From: Gemmatimonadaceae bacterium | GTDB lineage: Bacteria; Gemmatimonadota; Gemmatimonadetes; Gemmatimonadales; Gemmatimonadaceae | Reading direction: 5' to 3' | NCBI GenBank assembly: GCA_035533015.1 | Contig: DATLUQ010000062.1 | Location: 1 to 64,000 of the forward strand | DNA: 64,000 bases | Shown: in pieces, positions 2,946 through 61,943 of the stretch | Position numbering within the stretch: position 1 is the stretch's first letter | Layout of the letters: each line of letters starts with the position of its first letter | Translations under genes and position numbers: made by a program | Notes under the pieces: model-generated | What the model was told of the DNA's origin: nothing | Databases searched by the model: none | What the model saw: only the letters and a program-made list of their open reading frames with translations

Positions 2946-5900
2946 CTACTGCGCCACCCCGAGTTTCGCCATCGCCGCGCGCAGCTTGGCCTCGCCCGCC
3001 TGCGCCTCCTGCGCCATGACGTGGTAGACGGCCGCTTCGGCGGCGTTCGGCGCGGCATACGCCATGTCGATTTGCCCGGCGAGAAGCCCGAGGTGGGTGC
3101 GCAGCTTCGGCTCGAAGACGAGGTCGCCCTCGCTGGAAGTGATTTTCAGTTGGACGAGCGAATCAATCGCGCCGGTAAGCGGGGTGAGCGCCGTCGAATC
3201 GCGGCCGGCCCTGGCCAGGCTGTCGCGCACGGTGATCGCCCGGTTGAGCGCGGTGTCGAGCGAGTCGAGCGTCGCGTGAATCTGCAGCTGGAGCGCCAGA
3301 CGCTGCGCGAGCGCGTCGGGCCCCACGTGAATCCGCGGATCGAGCGACACCTCGAACGGCGCCGTCAGCTTCTCGCCGCCGTAGGCGAGCACGACCCGAT
3401 AGCTGCCCGGCACCACGACCGGGCCGTCGACGTTGTTGTCGACATCGGCGTCCTCCGGCGCGTTGAATCCTTTCACCTCCGCTGCGTCGGCATAGCGTAA
3501 GTCCCACTGAAAGTGGTTCATGCCTGGTTGGATCGCGGTGAGATGCTTGAGGGCGTCGGCCCGCTGCTCGCTCGTTGACTCCGAATCCTCGGCGGCCTTC
3601 GACTTCTTCGTTTCGGACGTGTCTTTGAGGTGCAGGTGGAACTCGCGGATCAGGGCCCCGGACGAATCGGTGAACGAGAGCTCGACCGGCGTCGAACCGT
3701 CATAGGTCTTGGGAATCTGGAAGAAGATCCGCGCGCCGAACGCCGGATTTTCACCGGCGTCGTGCGGCGCGCCCTCGTCTCCAGGCCCGCCGTATGCGTG
3801 GCTCAGCCAGGCACGCTCCGGCGTGAACAGCGCCGCGCGGTCGGCGGGCGGCGCGGCGCGTCCGGTCATCTGCTCCAGCAACGTCAGATTGTCGAGAATC
3901 CAGAACGCACGCCCGTGGGTCGCGATCGCGACGTCGCCCTGCCGCGTGTCGATGGCGATGCCCCGCACCTGTACCGGGGGAAGATTGAGCGAGAGCGGCC
4001 GCCAGCTCGCCGCGCCGTCGAGGCTCACGTACACCGTGGTCTTGGTGCCGAGGAAGAAGAGGTTCGAGTCGGCGGGATCCTGACGGATCACGAACCCGTA
4101 CGCGTCCTTGGGCAGCCCGGCCGTGATCGGCGTCCAGTGCCGCCCGAAATCAGTGGTCTTGAATAGGTACGGCGTGAAGTCGTCCCACATGTAGCGCTGC
4201 GCGGCCAGATACGCCGTGCCGCGGTCGACGTGCGAGGGCTCGACGGAGCTGATGTCGCACCACGTGGGAAGCGCGGGCGGCGTGACGTTCGTCCAGTGCG
4301 CACCGCCGTCCGTGGTCACGTGGACGAGGCCATCGGAGGAGCCGGCCCAGATCACGCTGTCGTCGCGCGGGGAGACGGCCAGCGCCGACACCGACGGATA
4401 TACCTCCGCGCCCGACTGATCGATGTCGATCGGGCCGCCGCTCGGTGCCTCCGTCGCGGGATCGTTCCGCGTGAGGTCGGGGCTGATCGTCTTCCACGTG
4501 GCGCCATGGTCGTCGCTGCGCATCACGTACTGCGACCCGACCAGGAGCTCATCCGGATTGTTGGGCGAAAAAAGAATGGGATGCGTCCAGGCCCAGCGGT
4601 ACTTGAGCTCGGCCGAGGACGCGGCGTCCTGATAGTAGGGCCAGGGGCTGATGCTCTTGAACTCGCCGATCGCCCGATCGTACGTCATGAACAGACTGTA
4701 ATAATCGGCCCCGTACGTGATGTCCGGCCTTCCGGGCTGGGGCACGCTCGGCGTGCTCTCCCCGCCCGCCGACATCTTCCAATCGCTCAGCGAGATCTCG
4801 CCGTTGGGCGACGCGCTCGGCCCTTCCGTGGAGCCCTCGTCCTGCTGCGCCCCGTAGAGGTGGAACGGAAACCGGCCGTCGATGTTGACGTCGTAGAACT
4901 GCCCGGTCGGCTGGTTGTCCTCCGTGCTCCAGGTCTTGCCACCATCGGTCGAGACCGTGGCCCCGCCGTCGTTCCCCTCGAGCAGGATGTTCGGATCGCT
5001 GGGGTTGATCCACACCGTGTGGTTGTCGCCGTGCGGGGGGCTGAGAGCGGTGAACGTCTTGGCGCTGTCACGCGACACATAGAGCGCGTCGACCTCCGGC
5101 ATGTACACGGTGTTCGCATCCGTAGGGTCGACGAAGATCGCCATGTAGTAGAACGCGCGCTGGCGGAGCTTCCACTCCGTGTTCACGCGCGTCCAGCTGT
5201 TGCCGCCGTCGTCCGACCGAAAGACGCCGCCGTCCTTGGCCTGAATGGTCGCGTAGACGACGTTGGGCGCGCTGGCGGCAACCGCGATCCCGATCTTGCC
5301 CAGCAGCCCGCTTGGCAACCCGGGATTGCGCGAGATGTTCGTCCAGTGCTCGCCCCCGTCGTTGGACTTGTAGATGCCGCTGCCCGCGCCGCCGCTCGAG
5401 AGGGACCAGGGCGTCCGGTAGGCCTGCCAAGTCGCCGCGTAGAGCACGTCGGGCGCACCGGGCTGCATGACCAGATTCACCACCCCCGTGCTGTCGTTCA
5501 CGAACAGCACCCGCTGCCAGGTCTTGCCGGCATCGTTCGTCTTGAAGACGCCGCGGTTGGGACCGGGAACGAATACGTGGCCCAACGAAGAGGCATAGAC
5601 CACGTCGGGATTCCTGGGGTCGACGATCAGGTTGCTGATGGTGTGCGTGTCCTCAAGGCCCGCGGCATGCCACGTCTTCCCCCCGTCCGCCGAGCGGAAG
5701 ACACCGTCCCCGGTGATCATGTCGCCGCGGATGTCGCTCTCGCCCGTCCCCACGTAGATCACGTCCGGGTTGGACGGCGCCACCGCGATGGCTCCGATGC
5801 TGTTGCTCGAGCCCGGCAGCGTGCTGTCGGAGATGTTCCTCCACACGTTGCCGTAGTCGGTGCTCTTCCAGACGCCGCCGTCCACAGCTCCCATGTAGAA

Positions 5901-8212: not shown

Positions 8213-9619
8213 ATGAAAACGATTGCTTCGCTGACTCTGGCTCTGACGATTTTCGGCGCCGCGCCCGCGGTGGTACGGGCGCAGGCCCGCGGAACCGGTT
8301 CCGCCACCATCGCGACGCCGATCGTGCTGCACGCGGCGCGGCTGTTCGAGGTCGTACCGGGGCGGATCGTCAGCCCCGGCGAGGTGCTGATCCAGGGCGA
8401 CCGCATCCAGGCCGCCGGCACGTCGGTGCCGCATCCCGCCGGCGCGAGAGTCATCGACCTCGGGGACATGACGCTGATGCCGGGACTGATCGACGCCCAC
8501 GTGCACCTCTTTCTGCACCCGGCGCCGCCCTCGGAGGGCATGCAGACGGTGGACGAGTCGGCGCCCGAACGGACGATCGAGGCGACGCTGGCCGCGAAGG
8601 CCGACTTGATGGCGGGCTTCACCTCCGAGCGCGAGATGGGCACCGAAGGCGCGGGCCCGGCGGACGCCGCCGTGCGCGATGCCATCAACCGGGGGCTCAT
8701 TCCGGGCCCAAGGCTCCGCATCAGCGGCATGGCGATCTCGATCCTCGGCGGCCACGAGGACGCAATTGGTTTCAACCCGGCGCAACACGTCCTGGGGAAT
8801 GCCGACTACGCCAACGATACCGAGCAGCTCATCGAGACGATCCGCGAGCAGCACAAGGAAGGATCGAGTTTCGTGAAGATCTACGAAACGGGGCCCGACG
8901 AAATGGTGCCGGACGGCTCGGCTCCCTGCATGGGTAATCCGATCTGCGCGCAGCTCGGGATCGGCGAGCAGGCGGGCGACCCGCAGTTCTGGGATTTCCA
9001 TACGCCATATCAGTATACTGAAGAACAGCTCCAGGCAGCCGTGGCCGAGGCCGCTCGGCTGAACACCAACGTGGGCGTGCACTGCCAGGGCGAGCCGGCG
9101 GCGCGGTTTGCCGTGGAGGCGGACGTGGCGTCCATCGATCACGCGACGCAGCTCAGTGACGGGACGATGCAGATGATGAAGGAGAAGGACATCCCCGCCG
9201 TGCCGACGTTCACCATTTTCGAATACTTCGCGGATCACGCGGGGAGCGCAGCGGCGGCCGCGCGCGAACACGCCATGCTGGAGTACAAGATCCGCGAGTT
9301 CAAACGGCAGGTCGCGGCGGGGACCCCGATGGCTGTGGGGTCGGACGTGGGGCCGTTCCCGCACGGGACGCAGGCGAGGGAATTCGAGTTGATGGTGAAG
9401 TACGGGATGACCCCGCTGGCCGTGCTCGAGGCCGATTACCGGAACGATCCGCGCATTCTGACGTGGCAGAACGAAGTGGGACAACTGACGCCCGGATACT
9501 TTGCAGACGTGATTGCGGTGCCCGGGAATCCGCTGCAGGACATTACGGCGGTAGAGCGCGTGCAGTTCGTAATGAAGGGCGGCGTCGTGTACAAGGGCGA
9601 GGGCGTTCACGCGCCCTGA
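8213..9619 (+). CDS. Exported metal-dependent amidohydrolase, 468 aa
   Basis: An amidohydrolase-superfamily enzyme of the imidazolonepropionase-like group, expected to hydrolyse a cyclic amide or imino bond, or a dipeptide, in the periplasm. The metal-site elements appear in order: DAHVHLF (the HxH pair), a Lys in SFVKIYETG, His in GVHCQGE, His in SIDHATQLS, and the Asp of AVGSDVGP. The ATG at 8213 is chosen over an upstream in-frame ATG at 8150 because GGAGG lies five bases before it and it begins a good signal peptide (about 1-23, ending VVRAQ). The C-terminus has the usual metal-independent beta-sheet closing with GYFADVIAVPGNPL. The substrate cannot be told from sequence. Confidence 0.88.
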   Translation: MKTIASLTLALTIFGAAPAVVRAQARGTGSATIATPIVLHAARLFEVVPGRIVSPGEVLIQGDRIQAAGTSVPHPAGARVIDLGDMTLMPGLIDAHVHLFLHPAPPSEGMQTVDESAPERTIEATLAAKADLMAGFTSEREMGTEGAGPADAAVRDAINRGLIPGPRLRISGMAISILGGHEDAIGFNPAQHVLGNADYANDTEQLIETIREQHKEGSSFVKIYETGPDEMVPDGSAPCMGNPICAQLGIGEQAGDPQFWDFHTPYQYTEEQLQAAVAEAARLNTNVGVHCQGEPAARFAVEADVASIDHATQLSDGTMQMMKEKDIPAVPTFTIFEYFADHAGSAAAAAREHAMLEYKIREFKRQVAAGTPMAVGSDVGPFPHGTQAREFELMVKYGMTPLAVLEADYRNDPRILTWQNEVGQLTPGYFADVIAVPGNPLQDITAVERVQFVMKGGVVYKGEGVHAP

Positions 9620-45417: not shown

Positions 45418-48400
45418 ATGAAGAGCGCTCTCTGTATCGCCGCCCTGTTCCTCGCGGCCGCATTCTCCACCGCCTCCGCCCAGGGCGGATCGGTGGACAT
45501 CATTCGGGGCCGCGTGACCGGTCCCGACGGACACCCGCTGGCCAACGTCACCGTCAACGTCCAGTCGATGACCGATGAGACGACCCGGTCGTCCCGCACG
45601 GGTGCGGACGGCCGGTTCACCGTGCTGTTCGCCGGCGGCGACGGCGACTACATGGTGAACTTCCTGTCGATCGGCATGGTGCCACTCAGCTTCGAGGTCC
45701 AGAAGACGAATGATGACGACGCGGTGATCCTCGCCAACGGCAAGATGGAGGCGGCACCGACGCAACTCGACGCGGTCCGCGTGAATGCGAATCGAGCGCG
45801 GCCCACCGTCGGCGACGAGAACCGGCCCGATATCGGTGGCGTGGAGCAGTCGATGAATTCGCAGGGCATTCCGATCGGGGCGCTCGGCGACCTGTCGGCG
45901 ATGGCCGCCTACCTGCCAGGCGTGACCGCGATGTCCAACGCCGATGGGACGATGGGCTTCTCCGTGCTCGGGCTCGGCTCCGACCAGAACAACATCAGCC
46001 TCAACGGGCTGACCTTCGGAGGCACACTACCGCGCGACGTGCAGGTCAATGCGCGGCTGTCCACCACGACCTTCGATCCGTCTCGCGGCGGATTCAGCGG
46101 CGGCCAGGTCTCGGCTCGGACGTTCAGCGGGTCCAACTACATCAACCGCAGTCTTCACGTCACATTCGACAACCCGGATCTGCAATGGGCCAATCCCACG
46201 TCGCGGGCGCTGGGACAGCAATATGACGACGTCATCGCCAGCGGCGCGTTGAGCGGGCCGCTCATCTGGAACAAGCTGTTCTACAACACGTCGTTCCAAT
46301 TCGGACGCCAGAGCAGCAACCTGCAGACCCTGCTCAACACGAACCAGTCGGCGCTCCAGAGCGTCGGCATCTCGCAGGACTCGGTCAATCAGCTGCTGGC
46401 GTACATGCAGGGCGCAGGGATTCCGGCCACGGTGGGCGCCGTGCCGTCCGACCGGCTCAACAATTCGGCCGGGGTATTCGCCCAGATGAGTTTCTCGCCC
46501 ACGGGCACCGACACCTGGGGCATGCTGTTCAACGGCTCGTGGAACCAGTCGGGCGCCGCCTCGCTGAACACCTCGTCCGTCCCGGCCCACGGTGGCCAGT
46601 CGACGCGCCGGTCCGGGACGCTGCAGGTGACCCACGCCGGGTATTTCGGCTACGGATTCCTCGACGAGACGAGCGCCTCGCTGTCGGCCACCGCGTCGGA
46701 TGCCAGCGCCTACCTGTTGTTGCCCGGAGCGAACGTGCTGGTGAGCTCCGTGCTGCCCGACGGCGCGTCCGGGGTCTCGACGCTCCAGTTCGGCGGCAAC
46801 TCCGGCTATCCGCAGACCTCCACGAACTATCAATGGGAGTTCTCCAATGCGACGTCGTGGTTCAGCGACGACAATACGCACCGGATCAAGCTCACCGAAG
46901 ACATCCAACTGAGCCGCTACATCCAGAACCAGAACGCGAACTCGCGCGGTACGTTCACGTTCAATTCACTGTCCGATCTCGAGGCCGGCATCCCCGCGTC
47001 GTTCACCCGCCGGTTGGCGCCAGCGTACAAGAGCGGCGACGTCGCAACGTACGCGATGTCGCTGGGCGACGCGTGGCGGCCGGTGGACGTGTTGCAGGTG
47101 CAGTACGGATTCCGCGCCGAGGGGAGCGAGTTCAGCACCACCCCGATGTACAACCCGCTCGTCGACAGCCTGTACGGTCTGCGCAACAACGTCGTGCCGA
47201 ACGACATCACGATCAGCCCGCGGGTGGGCTTCAGCTGGCAGGTGGGGTCGGCGCCGCAGATCGAGGGATTCCGCGGGGCCTTTCATCCGCCGCTCTACGT
47301 GATCACGGGAGGCGTGGGTGAGTTCCGCAACAACCCGACCGCGACGTTGATCGCCAACGCGGTGGACCAGACCGGCCTGCCCAGCGCCGCCCAGCAGATC
47401 ACCTGCGTGGGGAGCGCGGCGCCCACGCCGGACTGGGCGGCGTACGCCCAGAACGCGGCCAACATTCCGACCACGTGCGCCGGCGGCTCCACGGGCGTGT
47501 TCGCCAACTCGGCGCCCAACGTGGCGTTGTTCAGCCCGGACTACCGCACGCAGCGCAGTTGGCGCGGCAACCTCGGCATTCGCGGGCTGCTCACATCGCT
47601 GTTCAACGGCAACCTGACCTACACCTATTCGATCAACGACGACCAGCGCGGCTCGATCGACCGGAACTTCTCCGACGTGCCACAGTTCAGCCTGGCCAAT
47701 GAGGACAATCGGCCGGTGTACGTCTCACCAGCCAGCATCGTGCCCTCCACCGGCGCCATCGCCGCCGGGTCGAACCGCGCGTCGTCTGACTTCTCGCAAG
47801 TCTCCGAAGCGGTGTCCGACCTGCGGTCGTACACCCAGGAACTCCAGTTCGGGATCTCGCCGCGCACGTTCAACTCCATCTTCAACTGGAGCCTGACCTA
47901 CGTATACCGCGACACGAAGCAGTTGAGCCGCGGATTCGGTGACAACACGGCGGGCGATCCGTTGGCGCTCTTCTGGGGCAACACCGGGCCGCAGCATCAG
48001 GTCAACTTCAACACGTCGATCACACTCGGCGGCGCGGTGAATCTGACGACGTTCATCCGCGTCAGCTCCGGCAACCGGTTCACACCGAGCGTGGCAGGCG
48101 ACATCAACGGCGATGGCTCCTCCAACGACCGGGCATTCATCTTCAACCCGGCCACGGCGAGCGACTCGGGCCTGCGCAGCGGCATGCAGTCCCTGCTCGG
48201 CAGCCTGTCGGGGAGCACGCGGCAGTGCCTCACCGCCCAGCTTGGCCAGATCGCCGGCCGCAACAGTTGCAGCGGACCGTGGGCGGTGCAGATGAGCGCG
48301 CTCAATATCCAGCTGGTGTCGGACCGCGTGCGGCTGCCCTCGCGGATGACCGTGGCGCTCAGCCTTGCCAACCCACTCACCGGGGTCGACGCGCTGGTGC

Positions 48401-49200
48401 ATGGCGGCAGCAACCTGGCCGGGTGGGGGCAGCCTCCGGTGGTGGATCCGACCCTGCTCTACGTGCGTGGGTTCAATGCGACCACGAATGAGTTCCAGTA
48501 CGAGGTCAATCCGCGGTTCGGCAACGCGCCCGCGGCACAGTTGGCCTCGTGGGCTCCATTCACCGCCACGCTGGACGTCAAGCTCGCGGTCGGACCCGAT
48601 CGGAATCTCCAGCAGTTGGAGCAGTTGCTGCGCGGGAGCGGACCGGGTGGACGCGGGAATGGTTTTGGCGGGCGCGGCGGGCGCGGTGGTGGTTTCGGCG
48701 GTGGCCGGAGCGGCGCGCCCCCAGGCCGCCCCACCGAAACGCAGATCAAGGCCCGCTACGTGCGTGGCTATCCGAACCCGATGGACCAGATGCTGCGCCA
48801 GAAGGATCCGCTCAAACTCACCGACGTGCAGACCGACAGCCTCATCAGGATGAACAAGCAGTTCACGGCGGCGGTGGACTCCATCTGGACGCCGATCTCC
48901 AGGTACCTGGCCGCGCTGCCGCAGGAGTTCGACGTCACGGAGGCGTTCACCCACGTGAGCACCGGGCAGAACGCCACCATCGATCTGCTGCTCGCGTATG
49001 CGCCGCGGGTCAAGGCATTGTTGACGCCGGATCAGTTCCGGCAGCTGCCGACCTTCCTGGCGGCCTTCCTGGATCCGCAAACGCTGCGCGAACTACGCCC
49101 GGGCATGGCGTTCGGATTCGGCGGGTTCGGCGGTGGCGGCGGCGGGATGGGAGGGGGCGGGGGTGGTGGCGGTGGTGGGCGCGGCGGCCGCGGGGGCTGA
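45418..49200 (+). CDS. TonB-dependent-receptor-like outer-membrane protein with extra C-terminal domain, 1260 aa
   Basis: A signal peptide (about 1-20, FSTASAQG) precedes a carboxypeptidase-regulatory domain (about 22-110, RGRVTGPDGHPLANVTVNVQ), a plug-like region and a long beta-barrel (about 240-1070) with repeated aromatic strands. The family is the SusC-like/OAR receptors, probably for oligosaccharide or peptide uptake. Unusually, the protein does not end with the barrel. A Gly-rich linker (about 1080-1105) leads to a helical segment with LTDVQTDSLIRMNKQ and LTPDQFRQLPTFL, resembling LTxxQ (Spy/CpxP-like) motifs, then a tail of glycines to the stop. No SusD partner is adjacent. Confidence 0.85.
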   Translation: MKSALCIAALFLAAAFSTASAQGGSVDIIRGRVTGPDGHPLANVTVNVQSMTDETTRSSRTGADGRFTVLFAGGDGDYMVNFLSIGMVPLSFEVQKTNDDDAVILANGKMEAAPTQLDAVRVNANRARPTVGDENRPDIGGVEQSMNSQGIPIGALGDLSAMAAYLPGVTAMSNADGTMGFSVLGLGSDQNNISLNGLTFGGTLPRDVQVNARLSTTTFDPSRGGFSGGQVSARTFSGSNYINRSLHVTFDNPDLQWANPTSRALGQQYDDVIASGALSGPLIWNKLFYNTSFQFGRQSSNLQTLLNTNQSALQSVGISQDSVNQLLAYMQGAGIPATVGAVPSDRLNNSAGVFAQMSFSPTGTDTWGMLFNGSWNQSGAASLNTSSVPAHGGQSTRRSGTLQVTHAGYFGYGFLDETSASLSATASDASAYLLLPGANVLVSSVLPDGASGVSTLQFGGNSGYPQTSTNYQWEFSNATSWFSDDNTHRIKLTEDIQLSRYIQNQNANSRGTFTFNSLSDLEAGIPASFTRRLAPAYKSGDVATYAMSLGDAWRPVDVLQVQYGFRAEGSEFSTTPMYNPLVDSLYGLRNNVVPNDITISPRVGFSWQVGSAPQIEGFRGAFHPPLYVITGGVGEFRNNPTATLIANAVDQTGLPSAAQQITCVGSAAPTPDWAAYAQNAANIPTTCAGGSTGVFANSAPNVALFSPDYRTQRSWRGNLGIRGLLTSLFNGNLTYTYSINDDQRGSIDRNFSDVPQFSLANEDNRPVYVSPASIVPSTGAIAAGSNRASSDFSQVSEAVSDLRSYTQELQFGISPRTFNSIFNWSLTYVYRDTKQLSRGFGDNTAGDPLALFWGNTGPQHQVNFNTSITLGGAVNLTTFIRVSSGNRFTPSVAGDINGDGSSNDRAFIFNPATASDSGLRSGMQSLLGSLSGSTRQCLTAQLGQIAGRNSCSGPWAVQMSALNIQLVSDRVRLPSRMTVALSLANPLTGVDALVHGGSNLAGWGQPPVVDPTLLYVRGFNATTNEFQYEVNPRFGNAPAAQLASWAPFTATLDVKLAVGPDRNLQQLEQLLRGSGPGGRGNGFGGRGGRGGGFGGGRSGAPPGRPTETQIKARYVRGYPNPMDQMLRQKDPLKLTDVQTDSLIRMNKQFTAAVDSIWTPISRYLAALPQEFDVTEAFTHVSTGQNATIDLLLAYAPRVKALLTPDQFRQLPTFLAAFLDPQTLRELRPGMAFGFGGFGGGGGGMGGGGGGGGGGRGGRGG

Positions 49201-49230
49201 GCGCGAACGGATCACTGAGGACTGCGCGAA

Positions 49231-49257
49231 CCGCACCCGGCCTGCTGCCGGGTGCGG
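49231..49257. terminator. Strong bidirectional terminator
   Basis: CCGCACCCGGC (49231-49241) and GCCGGGTGCGG (49247-49257) form 11 perfect pairs around CTGCT, between the receptor gene and the convergent bacilliredoxin gene. Confidence 0.75.
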
Positions 49258-49273
49258 CAGGGCAGGACCACCG

Positions 49274-49720
49274 TCACCCACAGTGCTCGTCGAACGCGCC
49301 CACGAGATCCTTCGCGATCTCCGCTGCCGGCCGCCCTTCGATCTGCCAGCGCTCCAGCATGAACACCAGCTTCCCGTCCTTCAGTAACGCGATCTGCGGC
49401 GACGACGGCGGGTACCCGGTGAAATAGCTCCTCGCGCGGGCCGTGGCGTCGGCATCCTGGCCCGCGAACACGGTGGCCAGGTGCGCCGGCTTCACCGCGT
49501 GACGGATCGCCATCGCTGCTGCCGGACGCGCATTGCGCGCCGAGCAGCCGCACACGGAATTCACCACGACGAGCGTCGTGCCCGTGGCGTCCTTGACCGC
49601 GGCGTCCACTTCCTGCGGCGTGCGCAGTTCACGGAAGCCAATCCCGGTGAGTTCGGCGCGCATCGGCGCCACCAGTTCTTCGGGGTACATGGTCGGGGCC
49701 GTGCGAAGATTCAGACTCAT
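49274..49720 (-). CDS. brxA: Bacilliredoxin-family protein (BrxA/BrxB, YphP type), 148 aa
   Basis: A DUF1094 thioredoxin-like protein with the CGC active site at residues 57-59 (VVVNSVCGCSA), preceded by the family N-terminus MYPEELVAPMRAEL and followed by YFTGYPPSSPQIALLKDG. In Firmicutes it removes bacillithiol from proteins; elsewhere its thiol partner is not clear. The length is normal. It is the last gene of a leftward series and starts 12 bases after the GroES-like gene. Confidence 0.9.
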   Translation of the reverse strand: MSLNLRTAPTMYPEELVAPMRAELTGIGFRELRTPQEVDAAVKDATGTTLVVVNSVCGCSARNARPAAAMAIRHAVKPAHLATVFAGQDADATARARSYFTGYPPSSPQIALLKDGKLVFMLERWQIEGRPAAEIAKDLVGAFDEHCG

Positions 49721-49732
49721 GATTCCACTCCG

Positions 49733-50095
49733 TTAGGATTCGTCGCGCACCAGCGCGAGTATCGCTTGCTGCGGGACGACGAGGTACCGCTCGCCCTCGA
49801 ACGTGATCTCCACCGCCGCCTTGCGGAAGAACAGCGCATAGTCGCCTTCGCGCGCCTGCATCGGTACGAATCGCGTCTCGCGCATGGGCGCCCGCCAGGG
49901 CTCGTCGGACCCCGCGTCGGGACTCGGTAGCGGAAGGCCGGGACCGGTGGCCACGATCGTGCCGCCCTGCACCGCTTGGTTGTCCACGGCGGTCGGCGGC
50001 AGGTACAGCCCGACGTTCGTCCGCTCCTCGCCTTCTTCGACCTTGACCAGCACGCGGTCGCCGACGACGATCAGTTCCTTGTCCTTGCGGTGCAT
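49733..50095 (-). CDS. GroES-like co-chaperonin family protein, 120 aa
   Basis: The Cpn10 fold is recognisable: ELIVVGDRVLVKVEEGEERTNVGLYLPPTA at the N-terminus (with the mobile-loop region), then GGTIVATGPG, and finally YALFFRKAAVEITFEGERYLVV. It is about 25 residues longer than GroES because of an insertion (about 60-85, rich in Pro and charged residues). There is no adjacent groEL, so this is a stand-alone paralogue of unknown partner. The ATG is preceded by six C bases and then a TATATT, so the mRNA is probably leaderless. Confidence 0.85.
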   Translation of the reverse strand: MHRKDKELIVVGDRVLVKVEEGEERTNVGLYLPPTAVDNQAVQGGTIVATGPGLPLPSPDAGSDEPWRAPMRETRFVPMQAREGDYALFFRKAAVEITFEGERYLVVPQQAILALVRDES

Positions 50096-50101
50096 GGGGG
50101 G

Positions 50102-50107
50102 AATATA
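50102..50107 (-). promoter_or_regulatory. -10 element of the GroES-like gene (leaderless)
   Basis: On the leftward strand TATATT is followed by exactly six bases and then the ATG, which places the transcription start at or near the start codon. This matches the geometry at sdpR (59575-59580). Confidence 0.45.
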
Positions 50108-50124
50108 ATCGTCCCCGCCGATCT

Positions 50125-51243
50125 CTACGGCGAGGGCTGGTCCAACACGGCATCCAGCCGGTCGAGCGCCTCGGCCAGATTGGCGCGGCCGAAGCCGAGG
50201 CGCACTTCGTGGCTGGCGGCATCGAACACGGTGCCTGGCAGGAGCAGCACCCCGGACCGCTCGAGCACGCGCGCGCAGAAGGCATCGACGTCCCCCGCGA
50301 CCAGCGTAGGAAAGGTCACCGAACCGGCCTGCGGCGGCACCCAGCGCAGCAGGCCGGACCGCCGCGTGAAGAACCCGCGCAGGAGCCCAAGATTGGCCGT
50401 GACGATAGCGCGGTTCCGCGCCAAGATCGCCTCGCCGGCACCCAGCGCCACCGCGGCCAGCAGTTCGCTCGGGGCGCTGTTGCAGATCGTCGTGTAGTCC
50501 TTGATCTCTGCCGCGGCAGACAGGATGGCCGCATCGCGGGAGGCCAGCCACCCGATCCGCAGCCCGGCCAACCCATAGGCCTTGGACAGGACGCCCAGCG
50601 ATACCCCACGCTCATAGGCGTCGCACATCGCGGGGAGACGGTCGGCCGGCGCGTATTCCAGCCCGCGATAGACCTCGTCCGACAGCACCACGAGGCCGTG
50701 ACGGCGGGCGAAGGCAACGATGGCCTCGAAGATGGGCCGGGCGAAATGGTGGCCCGTGGGGTTGTGTGGCGAGTTGACGATGAGCAGCCGCGTGTTGGGG
50801 CGGACCAGGCGCGCGAGGTCGGCCGGATCGGGGGCCCAGGTGGTCGGGTCGGCCTGCCAGGCCGAGACCTCGGCGCCGGCGGCTCGGGGGAGTTCGAACA
50901 GCGATTGGTAGCACGGCCACTGGACGATGGCATGGTCGCCGGGGCCCAGCGTGGCGTTCACGAGCGTGAAGACGCCTTCCTGGGCGCCCGCGTGGACCAG
51001 CACGCCACCCGCCGGCAAGGCCTCGTACAGGGCCGCGATGGCGGAACGCAGGGTGGGATGGCCGCTGCTTTCTGTGTAACCCAGACGAAGGGCGAGCAGC
51101 CGCTGCGTGGCCTCCCTTCCCGGGCTCATGGCCAGCAGGTCGCCAACGCTCAGCGTTTCGCAGTCGGATCCCGACAGCAGGTAGGGGGCCGAGAATTCCC
51201 GATCTGCGAAGTACCGCTCGAGCCGGAACGCGACGGGGCGCAT
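50125..51243 (-). CDS. PLP-dependent aminotransferase (class I/II), 372 aa
   Basis: A fold-type I aminotransferase. The PLP lysine lies in SLGVLSKAYGLAGLRIGW, with the substrate/PLP residues VNSPHNPTG and VLSDEVYRGLE. The overall length and the N-terminal LERYFADREFSAPYLLSGSD are typical of the capreomycidine synthase-like/aspartate aminotransferase subgroup. The substrate is unknown. It is 10 bases downstream of the membrane-protein gene and 29 bases upstream of the GroES-like gene on the same strand. Confidence 0.9.
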   Translation of the reverse strand: MRPVAFRLERYFADREFSAPYLLSGSDCETLSVGDLLAMSPGREATQRLLALRLGYTESSGHPTLRSAIAALYEALPAGGVLVHAGAQEGVFTLVNATLGPGDHAIVQWPCYQSLFELPRAAGAEVSAWQADPTTWAPDPADLARLVRPNTRLLIVNSPHNPTGHHFARPIFEAIVAFARRHGLVVLSDEVYRGLEYAPADRLPAMCDAYERGVSLGVLSKAYGLAGLRIGWLASRDAAILSAAAEIKDYTTICNSAPSELLAAVALGAGEAILARNRAIVTANLGLLRGFFTRRSGLLRWVPPQAGSVTFPTLVAGDVDAFCARVLERSGVLLLPGTVFDAASHEVRLGFGRANLAEALDRLDAVLDQPSP

Positions 51244-58674: not shown

Positions 58675-59303
58675 GTTTGTTCTCCCTTCCAGGCGAAGTA
58701 CGAGTAGACCACCGAACCCAACGACGCGCCCATCACGGCGCTCATCAGCACGACGAATCCGGCGCGGGCGGGCAGGACGACGGACAGCACGGTGACAATG
58801 CCCGCCGCGGTCATGAGGTAGCCGCCCACGCGATGCGTCTTGGTCCACACGGTGTCGCTGGACAGCGTCCACGGCGTGCGGATGCCGAACCACCAGTTGG
58901 AGCGGGCGCGGGGCATGACGTTGCCCAGGAGCAGCAGCATGCCCCCGACCACGACCGGCATGACCCGGTCGATGCGGATCGGCCAGCCGAGCGCGGCGCC
59001 AATCACCGCGACATGGACCGCCACCAGCAGCGTGATGACGGCATCGACCACCAGGTCGTAGGTGCCCTGGAACTTGGCGTAGTTCGCGCGCCGCGGATCG
59101 ATGAGCGGCAGGCCGCGCATGAAGCCCCAGATGGCGAGCGCGATCAAGGGCATGAGGAAGGCGCCGACCAGCCGGCTGCCGTAGCCGTTGGGCTGGCCGT
59201 TGATGCCCCAGTGCATCGGCATCGAGAGCGGAAGGTGGGGATACGCGATCGCCGAGAACGAGAGCGCCCCCGCGATCAGGATCACGGGATACCACTTACG
59301 CAT
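58671..59303 (-). CDS. SdpI-family membrane protein, 210 aa
   Basis: Membrane protein with about six helices. The N-terminal part has the DUF1648 pattern (PLSMPMHWGINGQPNGYG), and the C-terminal half resembles SdpI (GNVMPRARSNWWFGIRTPWTL). In Bacillus, SdpI protects against the SdpC toxin and controls SdpR by binding it at the membrane. Start at 59303 overlaps the sdpR stop by eight bases and the stop overlaps the hydrolase gene, so the three are translationally coupled. No SdpC toxin is in the window. The protein is likely a signal or immunity component. Confidence 0.88.
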   Translation of the reverse strand: MRKWYPVILIAGALSFSAIAYPHLPLSMPMHWGINGQPNGYGSRLVGAFLMPLIALAIWGFMRGLPLIDPRRANYAKFQGTYDLVVDAVITLLVAVHVAVIGAALGWPIRIDRVMPVVVGGMLLLLGNVMPRARSNWWFGIRTPWTLSSDTVWTKTHRVGGYLMTAAGIVTVLSVVLPARAGFVVLMSAVMGASLGSVVYSYFAWKGEQT

Positions 59304-59568
59304 GCTTCCTCCCCGGTCGAATCCAATCGAGCAACTGCTCGACGACGTCGTTGAACACCGTGGTGTTGAGTTCGTAAACGACCTGCTGGCCGTGGCGCTC
59401 GGACAGGACGAGCCCGGCGTCGCGGAGCACGCCAAGGTGGCGGGAGATCGTGGGCCAGGCGGTGTCGAACTGTTCGGCGATTTCTCCCGAGGTGCGGGGC
59501 CGTTTGCGCAGGAGTTTGAGGATCTCTCGGCGGGTGGGGTCGGCGAGGGCTTTGAAGGCGGAGTCCAT
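59296..59568 (-). CDS. SdpR-like ArsR-family repressor, 90 aa
   Basis: A winged-helix repressor without metal cysteines, of the SdpR type: FKALADPTRREILKLLRK, TSGEIAEQF and the recognition helix PTISRHLGVLRDAGLV, and the wing SERHGQQVVYEL. The pairing with SdpI strongly suggests an autorepressor relieved by SdpI. The ATG is six bases from a strong TATCTT -10 so the mRNA is leaderless. The operator at 59575-59605 covers its promoter and is repeated before the hydrolase at 60972. Confidence 0.9.
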   Translation of the reverse strand: MDSAFKALADPTRREILKLLRKRPRTSGEIAEQFDTAWPTISRHLGVLRDAGLVLSERHGQQVVYELNTTVFNDVVEQLLDWIRPGRKHA

Positions 59569-59574
59569 GGCGAC

Positions 59575-59605
59575 AAGATAAGCTACTTAGCTAACTAGAC
59601 AAGTA
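59575..59605 (-). promoter_or_regulatory. sdpR operon promoter/operator
   Basis: On the leftward strand: TACTTG, two free bases, TA, two free bases, TAGCTAAGT, two free bases, CTTATCTT. It includes -35 TTGTCT and -10 TATCTT 16 bases apart, and a dyad, TAAG-N3-CTTA, in the spacer. All fixed bases (25 of 31) recur at 60882-60912. Confidence 0.7.
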
Positions 59606-59637
59606 TAAGCAGCGGGACCGTTCACGGCTCACAGCGT

Positions 59638-59643
59638 TCGGCC
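59638..59643 (+). repeat. Direct repeat flanking the inserted unit (left)
   Basis: TCGGCC directly outside the left terminal repeat. The same six bases directly follow the right terminal repeat at 60852-60857, as expected of a target-site duplication. Confidence 0.5.
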
Positions 59644-59688
59644 TGTCGGCGTGAGCGTTCGATTAAACGCGTTGTGCAGTTTCGTCGT
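59644..59688 (-). repeat. Terminal repeat copy A (left end)
   Basis: A 45-bp repeat beginning TGTCGGCG at its outer end. Read leftward it matches copy B at 32 of 45 positions and copy C at 33 of 45. The core GCACA and the string CGAAC-GCTCA-GCCGACA are best conserved. Confidence 0.65.
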
Positions 59689-59703
59689 ACACGCAGTGCC
59701 GAC

Positions 59704-59748
59704 TGTCGGCATGAGCGTTCGAAAACACAGTCTGTGCGGTATCTCCGA
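59704..59748 (-). repeat. Terminal-type repeat copy B (internal, tandem with A)
   Basis: The second copy of the 45-bp repeat, 60 bp inside copy A and in the same orientation; 33 of 45 positions equal copy C. Confidence 0.6.
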
Positions 59749-59799
59749 ACCCGCCGGTACGTGGCTGGATCGACGACCGGGACCATATCCGAGGATGGC

Positions 59800-60615
59800 T
59801 TACAGGCGGTCCAGCAACATCCTGGCGTTCGCCGACAAGAGCACGAACGCGGCCTCGGACACGTGTTTGCCACGCTGTGCGCCCAATTCGTCGAGCAGGG
59901 CGCCGAGCGATGCCGAATCGGGCCGCACCTTGGCGCCAAGACTGTTGCATACCCCCCGTTCATCGACCCACCCGAGTCGGCACGCGCGGGTGATGAGGTG
60001 GGACAGCCGCGAGGCCAGACCGCCCGGGGAGCGATCGACCGGCGTGGGCCCGACGCCGACGGTGAGGCCCGTCGTGCCGCGCAGCGTGACCGCGGTATCC
60101 GCGGATGGCGGCGTCGGGATAGAATCAGACGCGAGCACCGTATCGACGGTGTCCACCGGCCCATCGGCCTCGGCCCAGTAGCGGACGATGTCGACCGCCC
60201 CACGGGCCGAGTAGACGAGCGGCGGAGTCGAGGACCCCGGCGCCAAGAACGCCGAGTCCGCCCCCCACCCGGCGGTGGCGCGTTCATGCCAGCTCGTGGA
60301 CGTCCATGCGCCTGCCCACGCGTTGGACGCCCGCACGTGGAGGACTCCGGGAGCGTCCACCATGAACGAGGTGAGGGAATCCCGAGCCGTGGGTAGGACC
60401 GTCACAACGTAGGAAAGCGTCACTGAATCGGCGGCGAGGTCGAGCAGCGCCGGCGCAACCACGACGTCGAACCCTGGCGCGTGAGTCACGGTGTCGATGC
60501 TGCGACTCGCATGCGCTGTGGGACTGGTGGGGATCGATGGCCGTGGGTGCGACGGCACATGCCGTGTCGAGACCGCTAGAACAACGCCCATCACTAGATG
60601 CGGAACACGAGCCAT
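59800..60615 (-). CDS. Hypothetical secreted protein within the inverted-repeat unit, 271 aa
   Basis: I do not recognise a family. The ATG at 60615 is preceded by GGGGAGAG five bases upstream and starts a hydrophobic leader (HLVMGVVLAVST) that is a probable signal peptide, although its cleavage site is not obvious. The rest is rich in Ser, Thr, Pro and Asp in beta-strand-like stretches (DSVTLSYVVTVLP), then a C-terminal helical segment (about 225-271, ASLGALLDELGAQRGKHVSE to ANARMLLDRL). Two cysteines near residue 210 (ACRLGWVDERGVC) could form a disulfide. It is the only gene in the unit, so it is the passenger if this is a mobile element. Confidence 0.55.
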   Translation of the reverse strand: MARVPHLVMGVVLAVSTRHVPSHPRPSIPTSPTAHASRSIDTVTHAPGFDVVVAPALLDLAADSVTLSYVVTVLPTARDSLTSFMVDAPGVLHVRASNAWAGAWTSTSWHERATAGWGADSAFLAPGSSTPPLVYSARGAVDIVRYWAEADGPVDTVDTVLASDSIPTPPSADTAVTLRGTTGLTVGVGPTPVDRSPGGLASRLSHLITRACRLGWVDERGVCNSLGAKVRPDSASLGALLDELGAQRGKHVSEAAFVLLSANARMLLDRL

Positions 60616-60806
60616 CGAGTCTCTCCCCTCGGTTTGCTGACTCCGGCGGTTACTTCTCCAAAGTGGCAGACTCTCGTCATCAACGCGGCGCAACTGGAGA
60701 GGATGAGCGTTCCTCCAACGCACCCTCGACGATTGCTTGGCCTGCCGGCACGGGCTTATGCGTAAGACTACCGGAACGAGCCCGCCGCGCCGAGACGTTG
60801 ACCGTG

Positions 60807-60851
60807 TCGAAGAAACCGCACATGCTGTTCGATCAAACACTCGCGCCGACA
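60807..60851 (+). repeat. Terminal repeat copy C (right end)
   Basis: Inverted relative to copies A and B and ending CGCCGACA at its outer end. It lies in the 356-bp gap between the hypothetical gene and the hydrolase gene. The remainder of that gap (60616-60806) shows no other clear feature; a short GATGAGCGTTC near 60700 may be a remnant of the same repeat. Confidence 0.6.
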
Positions 60852-60857
60852 TCGGCC
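60852..60857 (+). repeat. Direct repeat flanking the inserted unit (right)
   Basis: TCGGCC directly after the right terminal repeat, identical to 59638-59643. Confidence 0.5.
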
Positions 60858-60881
60858 CTCCGGATGAGGCCCAGTCGTCAT

Positions 60882-60912
60882 TACTTGCATACCTAGCTAA
60901 GTGTCTTATCTT
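60882..60912 (+). promoter_or_regulatory. Hydrolase promoter/operator shared with sdpR
   Basis: TACTTG, then TA, TAGCTAAGT and CTTATCTT with the same two-base gaps as at 59575-59605. -35 TTGCAT (60885-60890) and -10 TATCTT (60907-60912) are 16 bases apart, with dyad TAAG-TGT-CTTA between. The gene starts 59 bases downstream. Confidence 0.7.
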
Positions 60913-60971
60913 AGAATCGCGGCCTCCCCCGGCCCTCGATTCCACCCCACCCGTCGGAGCGCACAAGGCAT

Positions 60972-61943
60972 ATGAACACGCTGATCCTCGCCGCCTGCTT
61001 GGTGGCCTCGACGATCACCCTCCCCGACTCCGGAGGCTCCGCCCCAGCGCCGCGCGAAGAACCCATGACCCTCCAGACCCCGACCGGGGCGATCGAGGGA
61101 ACGCTCACCCTGCCCGCCGAGGGCGCGGGCCCCTACCCCGTGGCGCTGATCATCGCCGGCTCCGGGCCCACCGACCGCGACGGCAACAGCCCGGCCGGCG
61201 TACGCACCGACGCCTACAAACTCATCGCCAACGACCTGGCGGCGCGCGGCATCGCAACCCTGCGCTACGACAAGCGGGGCATCGCCGCCAGCCGCGCCGC
61301 CGGCCGCAGCGAGTCCGATCTGCGGTTCGACGACTACGTGCGCGACGCCGAAGGCTGGCTGACCGAGCTCCGCGCCGACCGGCGCTTCACGACCGTCACC
61401 GTAATCGGGCACAGCGAGGGATCGTTGATCGGGATGGTCGCCGCGCCCGCGGCCCACGCCGATGGGTACATCTCGCTGGAAGGAGCAGGCCTGCCTGCCG
61501 CGGTCGTCCTCCGCACCCAACTCGCGGGCAAATTGCCCCCGGATCTGGCCGCCGAGTCGGAACGCATCCTGTCGGGTCTCGAGAAGGGACAGACCACCGA
61601 CAGCGTGCCTGCCCCGCTGCAGCCGCTCTACCGCGCGAGTGTGCAGCCCTATCTCATCTCATGGTTCAAGTACGATCCGGCCACGGAGATCGCCAAGCTG
61701 CAGATCCCGGCGCTCATCGTGCAGGGGACGCACGACGCGCAGATCGGCCTGGACGAGGCACAGCGGCTGGCCAAGGCCGATCCGCAGGCCACGCTGCTCG
61801 TGCTCGACGGCATGACGCACGTGCTCAAGGACGCGCCGGCCGGGCTGGCCGCGCAGACGGCGGCGTACACCGATCCGTCGCTGCCGCTCGACCCCAAGCT
61901 CGTACCGGCGATCGCCGAGTTCGTGGAGCGCCTGCGGCGGTAG
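60972..61943 (+). CDS. Exported alpha/beta hydrolase (BAAT/dienelactone-hydrolase-like), 323 aa
   Basis: A signal peptide is predicted from a short hydrophobic start (about 1-17, LILAACLVASTITL). The hydrolase domain has IIAGSGPTDRDGNSP, ARGIATLRYDKRGIAAS, nucleophile elbow IGHSEGSLIGM, acid region IVQGTHDAQIG and His in DGMTHVL. This is the same architecture as the C-terminal domain of the hydrolase at 57103-58674, so they are paralogues. AAGG lies five bases before the ATG. The common operator with sdpR predicts co-regulation. The function is unknown. Confidence 0.88.
   Translation: MNTLILAACLVASTITLPDSGGSAPAPREEPMTLQTPTGAIEGTLTLPAEGAGPYPVALIIAGSGPTDRDGNSPAGVRTDAYKLIANDLAARGIATLRYDKRGIAASRAAGRSESDLRFDDYVRDAEGWLTELRADRRFTTVTVIGHSEGSLIGMVAAPAAHADGYISLEGAGLPAAVVLRTQLAGKLPPDLAAESERILSGLEKGQTTDSVPAPLQPLYRASVQPYLISWFKYDPATEIAKLQIPALIVQGTHDAQIGLDEAQRLAKADPQATLLVLDGMTHVLKDAPAGLAAQTAAYTDPSLPLDPKLVPAIAEFVERLRR

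Follow-up and report, generated by a model that had tools for sequence, protein, structure and literature searches.

Among mobile insertion cassettes, mic-qnrD of Proteeae is a 1,519-bp element with 24-bp imperfect repeats (six mismatches) and a 2-bp duplication, for which no transposase gene was found, and MIC231 of Bacillus cereus has a known helper, IS231A; in the available portion of the source, elements lacking a known partner are still treated as mic elements (PMC3913671). TIMEs and TIME-COMP, derived from Tn3, are non-autonomous elements with imperfect ends of approximately 38 bp, the composites having various core genes and the duplications being mostly of 5 bp, as far as the excerpted account goes (PMC4133298). 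A typical size of under 500 bp is given for MITEs and TIMEs in the accessible part of PMC10969869.

The locus described here lies in the window, which is the whole 64,000-nucleotide stretch of DNA analysed and belongs to contig C62 of a 3.03-Mb MAG (66 contigs, 95.2% complete). By sdpR, its closest named relatives are three, all Gemmatimonadota MAGs. Between sdpR (59568-59296, minus strand) and an alpha/beta hydrolase gene (60972-61943, plus strand) lies a unit which is very probably a non-autonomous DNA transposon that carries a passenger gene but no transposase of its own and would be served by a DDE-type transposase in trans. Its features are listed below, with bit scores against R1, a sequence-only model built from all eight end copies in the MAG.

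59638 to 59643, unstranded: left copy of the target duplication TCGGCC, 6 bp (left flank CAGCGTTCGGCC)
59644 to 60851, unstranded: probable non-autonomous gene-carrying transposon, 1,208 bp, with inverted ends, TCGGCC on both sides, no recognised transposase and related units on contig C2
59644 to 59680, plus strand: end copy A, the outer left end, a 37-nt repeat TGTCGG...TGTGCAGT (36.3 bits, E 9.5e-11, filters off; A is itself among the eight copies used to build R1)
59704 to 59740, plus strand: end copy B, the inner left end, a direct repeat of A at 60-bp spacing (30.4 bits; 32/45 to A)
59800 to 60615, minus strand: passenger gene for a probably exported protein of 271 aa with a FIMAH-like C-terminal region (intact ORF; homologues in 13 other genomes, of which L107 matches PF22888)
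60815 to 60851, minus strand: end copy C, the right end, inverted (34.7 bits; 33/45 to A)
60852 to 60857, unstranded: right copy of the target duplication TCGGCC, 6 bp (right flank TCGGCCCTCCGG)

The ends of the unit are TGTCGGCGTGAG, starting at 59644, and CTCGCGCCGACA, finishing at 60851, with TGTCGGCG and CGCCGACA as the outermost tips. Inverted repeats of 45 bp had been predicted here and were confirmed: A and C match at 33 of 45 positions, as do B and C, with 32 for A and B, and none of 2,000,000 random plus/minus pairs of 45-mers from the window reached 33 matches (best 31). The 19-mer TGTCGGCRTGAGCGTTCGA, with up to three mismatches allowed, occurs in the 64-kb window only in copies A, B and C (shuffles: mean 0.14, maximum 1). 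The left end is thus doubled, as a tandem pair at 60-bp spacing, and the right end is single. TCGGCC directly abuts both tips with all six bases identical, again as predicted, for which the chance from base composition is approximately 0.0005. The two copies form a direct repeat into which the inverted repeat does not extend. The original prediction placed the element at 59638-60857; the ends and duplication are real, but that range takes in both TCGGCC copies and the unit proper is 59644-60851. It also held the unit to be without a transposase, which agrees with the single intact 271-aa gene inside, Pfam and NCBIfam recognising no transposase. An Rfam scan of 59000-61500 gave no match, and a promoter and terminator scan found nothing exceeding shuffles.

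A relaxed 37-nt pattern (≤ 3 mismatches) occurs at eight places in the MAG, and its reversed control at none. R1 recovers all eight. Three copies are in the window and five on contig C2 (genome G000), where they bound two further transposase-less units, so that the proposed search for further inverted pairs of TGTCGGCG-type ends was productive. All eight belong to the three units. The copies on C2, each located by the relaxed 37-nt pattern, are:

C2 45516, plus strand: end copy D
C2 45586, plus strand: end copy E
C2, ending at 49970, minus strand: end copy G
C2 49975, plus strand: end copy F
C2, ending at 50958, minus strand: end copy H

In the window, two plus-strand copies face one minus-strand copy (> > <); on C2 the same arrangement is followed by a second, simple pair (> > < > <), giving two units in tandem with the same kind of 37-nt end as the window unit. 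The end consensus starts with TGTCGG, has a palindromic core TTYRATYRAA and continues with TGTGCAGT; 14 of the 37 columns are invariant. Doubling of the left end is seen in two of the three units, at spacings of 60 and 70 bp, which differ by about one helical turn. The unit from D-E to G (4,455 bp) carries a T2SSG-like gene, a 155-aa unknown gene, an ADOP permease and a PadR gene; the unit from F to H (984 bp) carries a single gene, and inspection of its product by eye shows a lipoprotein-like start at an internal position. This ADOP-family permease and PadR regulator gene (L035 4695-7787) are therefore cargo of a transposase-less unit beside gyrB. Only four bases, GGGG (C2:49971-49974, L035 7972-7975), separate G from F. 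This junction agrees neither with nested insertion, given a 6-bp duplication, nor with an end common to both units. The outer ends D and H match at 34 of 45 positions, but so do G and H, which makes the D-H match a weak sign that these are the outer ends of the C2 pair.

The passenger of the window unit is probably an exported and surface- or polymer-associated protein, judging from its homologues. It has no Pfam or NCBIfam match and no match among PDB sequences. In the phylum sample, 14 of 395 genomes including the MAG have passenger matches, the best (50% identity) being in G228. Three homologues were scanned: L107 scores 29.4 bits to PF22888 (FIMAH), exceeding the cut-off, L104 has CBM5/12 modules and a sub-cut-off FIMAH, and L108 has neither. 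Against plasmids, the window passenger gave one partial match (38.5% over 24%, E 2e-4) and the protein of the 984-bp unit, to which it is dissimilar, gave none. At the 13 other passenger loci no R1 end scored above 6.4 bits (maximum 7.6 bits in six larger stretches), and a blind repeat search around the 13 homologues found no clear flanking pair. A 73-bp repeat pair in L100 was not end-like on reading. Since passenger homologues occur without such ends in the loci read, gene and ends are separable modules.

At E ≤ 0.01, R1 has matches in 3/394 class, 3/179 family and 3/288 order genomes (overlapping sets), nothing beyond the MAG being convincing: in each set, two genomes besides the MAG contribute a single weak match apiece, scoring 18 to 21 bits. 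These weak matches, in G048 (20.6 bits), G265 (18.2 bits) and G383 (18.6 bits), are single and near the E-value expectation over hundreds of genomes, and no partner end lies within the 10 kb read in G048 and G265. A stricter end pattern was present in one of 395 phylum genomes, the MAG itself. Two exact end patterns gave no match in viral contigs, and two left-end queries (E up to 10) gave only short, chance-level matches in plasmids. A literature search at record level found nothing on such elements in Gemmatimonadota.

The original prediction also called for a transposon with matching ends, and here it was disappointed: no such transposon or transposase was found in the MAG, the 288 order genomes or the 394 class genomes. 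The rve family (PF00665), the one transposase family searched for in the MAG, produced four rows, all below the cut-off, from three places. The matching ORFs are, by reading rather than by model, IS3-like remnants (C11, C53) and an IS30-like ORF of 484 aa (C6), and R1 without filters scored at most 5.0 bits near them, so that the stretches inspected there contain no ends of this type. The broken rve-type transposase fragments, apparently IS3-like remnants, are at L095 3705-4369 and L096 3576-4025, on two MAG contigs. A helper could be missed because the MAG is 95.2% complete and in 66 contigs.

That no known transposase has these ends, and that the ends have diverged, might be explained if the window unit were a decayed autonomous insertion sequence, its transposase deleted and replaced by other DNA, and thus a dead remnant rather than a cargo vehicle. 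This is improbable, since three units share a common end type and hold different cargo, which a single decay event would not yield. Moreover, the ADOP permease is full length (783 bits, cut-off 622), the window passenger ORF is intact, and none of the six genes carried by the three units matched a transposase or transposase fragment in Pfam or NCBIfam.

An empty site with one target copy was expected by the original prediction, and one is seen at the sister locus. The C2 pair (45516-50958, 5,443 bp) is flanked by TGGGAT on the D side and by TGGGAA on the H side (5/6 identical). In G024, of the same genus, the site is uninterrupted, with CCCTGGGACGGTAGG once and a single TGGGAC. In the alignment, C2 local position 3515 corresponds to L084 7417 and C2 local position 8962 to L084 7411, with five G024 bases between. 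Judged from these aligned bases, the pair of units, 5,443 bp together, behaves like a single insertion whose 6-bp duplication is now 5/6. G210 also lacks the C2 insert, its intergenic region being too diverged for a base-exact reading, and G401 has no match to the phosphatase gene neighbouring the insert.

At the window locus, sdpR almost adjoins the next conserved gene in same-genus genomes G024, G210 and G401, which have 76, 38 and 133 bp where the MAG has approximately 2.4 kb (unit plus hydrolase). The window unit is absent from all three, but no base-exact empty site is visible at this locus, because these relatives also lack the hydrolase flank. The joint absence is what would be seen if the unit and the adjoining hydrolase gene had arrived as one 2.4-kb insertion, TCGGCC being coincidental. 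We consider this very improbable: the hydrolase is outside both the inverted ends and the exact TCGGCC pair, and the sister insertion has the same geometry of ends and duplication without such a gene.

The hydrolase gene (60972-61943) is absent from beside sdpR in the three same-genus genomes. TAGCTAA boxes of SdpR type are present on both sides of the window unit, and the hydrolase's own box (60882-60912) is an inverted 81% match to that before sdpR. This suggests that the hydrolase may have been drawn into the regulon of SdpR.

One or a few genes per unit between repeats, and the tandem pair on C2, recall integron gene cassettes or CALIN, in which the repeats would be attC sites and the genes cassettes moved by the IntI integrase. 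In the MAG, however, the repeats bracket units in inverted orientation and a target duplication is left; integron cassettes are not known to show either inverted bracketing or target duplication. In the parts of PMC3053210 and PMC6393395 available, attC sites are described as hairpins formed by folding. Of the eight end copies, five were folded single-stranded (TGTCGG... strand) and were not clearly more stable than shuffles (z from -1.36 to +1.61), and the integron explanation is extremely improbable. Equally hard to credit is a regulatory or structural role for the repeats (for example as SdpR-type operators or REP-like hairpins), with local duplication as their origin and vertical inheritance of the gene, for although the unit sits between two SdpR-type TAGCTAA boxes and the core TTYRATYRAA is palindromic, the same repeats flank unrelated genes on C2 beside gyrB, the same-genus genomes searched lack them, and the G024 empty site with its single target copy contradicts it.

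The original prediction of a non-autonomous mobile element with a passenger gene is supported: the sister units share its type of end, and G024 has an empty site for the sister insertion. Paired inverted ends, a target duplication of fixed length and an empty site are marks of DDE transposition. The 37-nt end repeats, a pair at the left and one at the right, would be bound by a DDE-type transposase whose gene lies elsewhere; the enzyme would cut at the TGT...ACA tips, and the unit would insert with joints staggered by 6 bp, giving TCGGCC on both sides; the landing place would have been between the sdpR and hydrolase promoters. We infer the movement in trans, the DDE chemistry and the part that the repeats would play in binding. 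The doubled left end (60 or 70 bp) would fit cooperative transposase binding, as in Tn7-like elements. Against transposition of this kind stand the failure to find a transposase with matching ends in the MAG or the genomes searched, the lack, for the window unit, of an empty site in the same species, the 5/6 duplication on C2 and the GGGG junction, which fits no simple nested insertion. The window unit may no longer move, because its ends have diverged from one another (33/45).

Since three transposase-less units carry different cargo, and two of them are covered by the empty site of a relative, genes can sit on overlooked cassettes. Genes for exported proteins and whole gene clusters in Gemmatimonadota can ride cassettes missed by transposase-based annotation, and the 37-nt end model provides a direct means to look for the helper. 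As a more speculative possibility, about which we have more doubt than confidence, the units may belong to a hitherto unrecognised family of cargo transposons whose 37-nt ends are doubled and have palindromic cores. Such elements would carry genes for exported proteins and entire ADOP-permease/PadR clusters from one bacterial chromosome to another as bare cassettes, tandem units would travel together in one block, and the transposase responsible would be one that has yet to be connected with ends of this type.

Compared with described systems, the units resemble integron cassettes and CALIN in being small gene units between repeats, in tandem, and differ in inverted pairing, target duplication and end copies without attC-like folding. 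The rve-type DDE group of Tn7, Tn402-Tn5053, Tn552 and IS21 is characterised by TGT...ACA tips, close to which the binding sites for the transposase are repeated. The units share such tips and repeated end copies but, unlike Tn7, Tn402 and IS21 types, have no rve-type transposase gene inside, and a relationship to this group would be a guess. Like TIMEs and TIME-COMP, as far as the excerpt describes them, they are non-autonomous, with long imperfect ends and varied cargo. Tn3-type tips are GGGG, whereas those here begin TGTCGG, with a duplication of 6 bp. In contrast to MITEs and TIMEs of the typical size given in the accessible text, the units are 984 to 4,455 bp long and contain genes, no parental transposon having been found. 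Compared with MIC231 and mic-qnrD, the ends are longer (at least 37 nt) and palindromic at the core, two of the left ends are doubled, the duplication measures 6 bp, two units are in tandem and no helper was found. The window unit shares with these cassettes, so far as the available portion of their description extends, inverted ends (33/45), a passenger instead of a transposase and a target duplication. In ends, absence of transposase and duplication, the units agree with what that portion of PMC3913671 describes, and they add a new set of elements to a class already known. The best reading is that all three, with an end family for which no match was found, are of the mobile insertion cassette kind.
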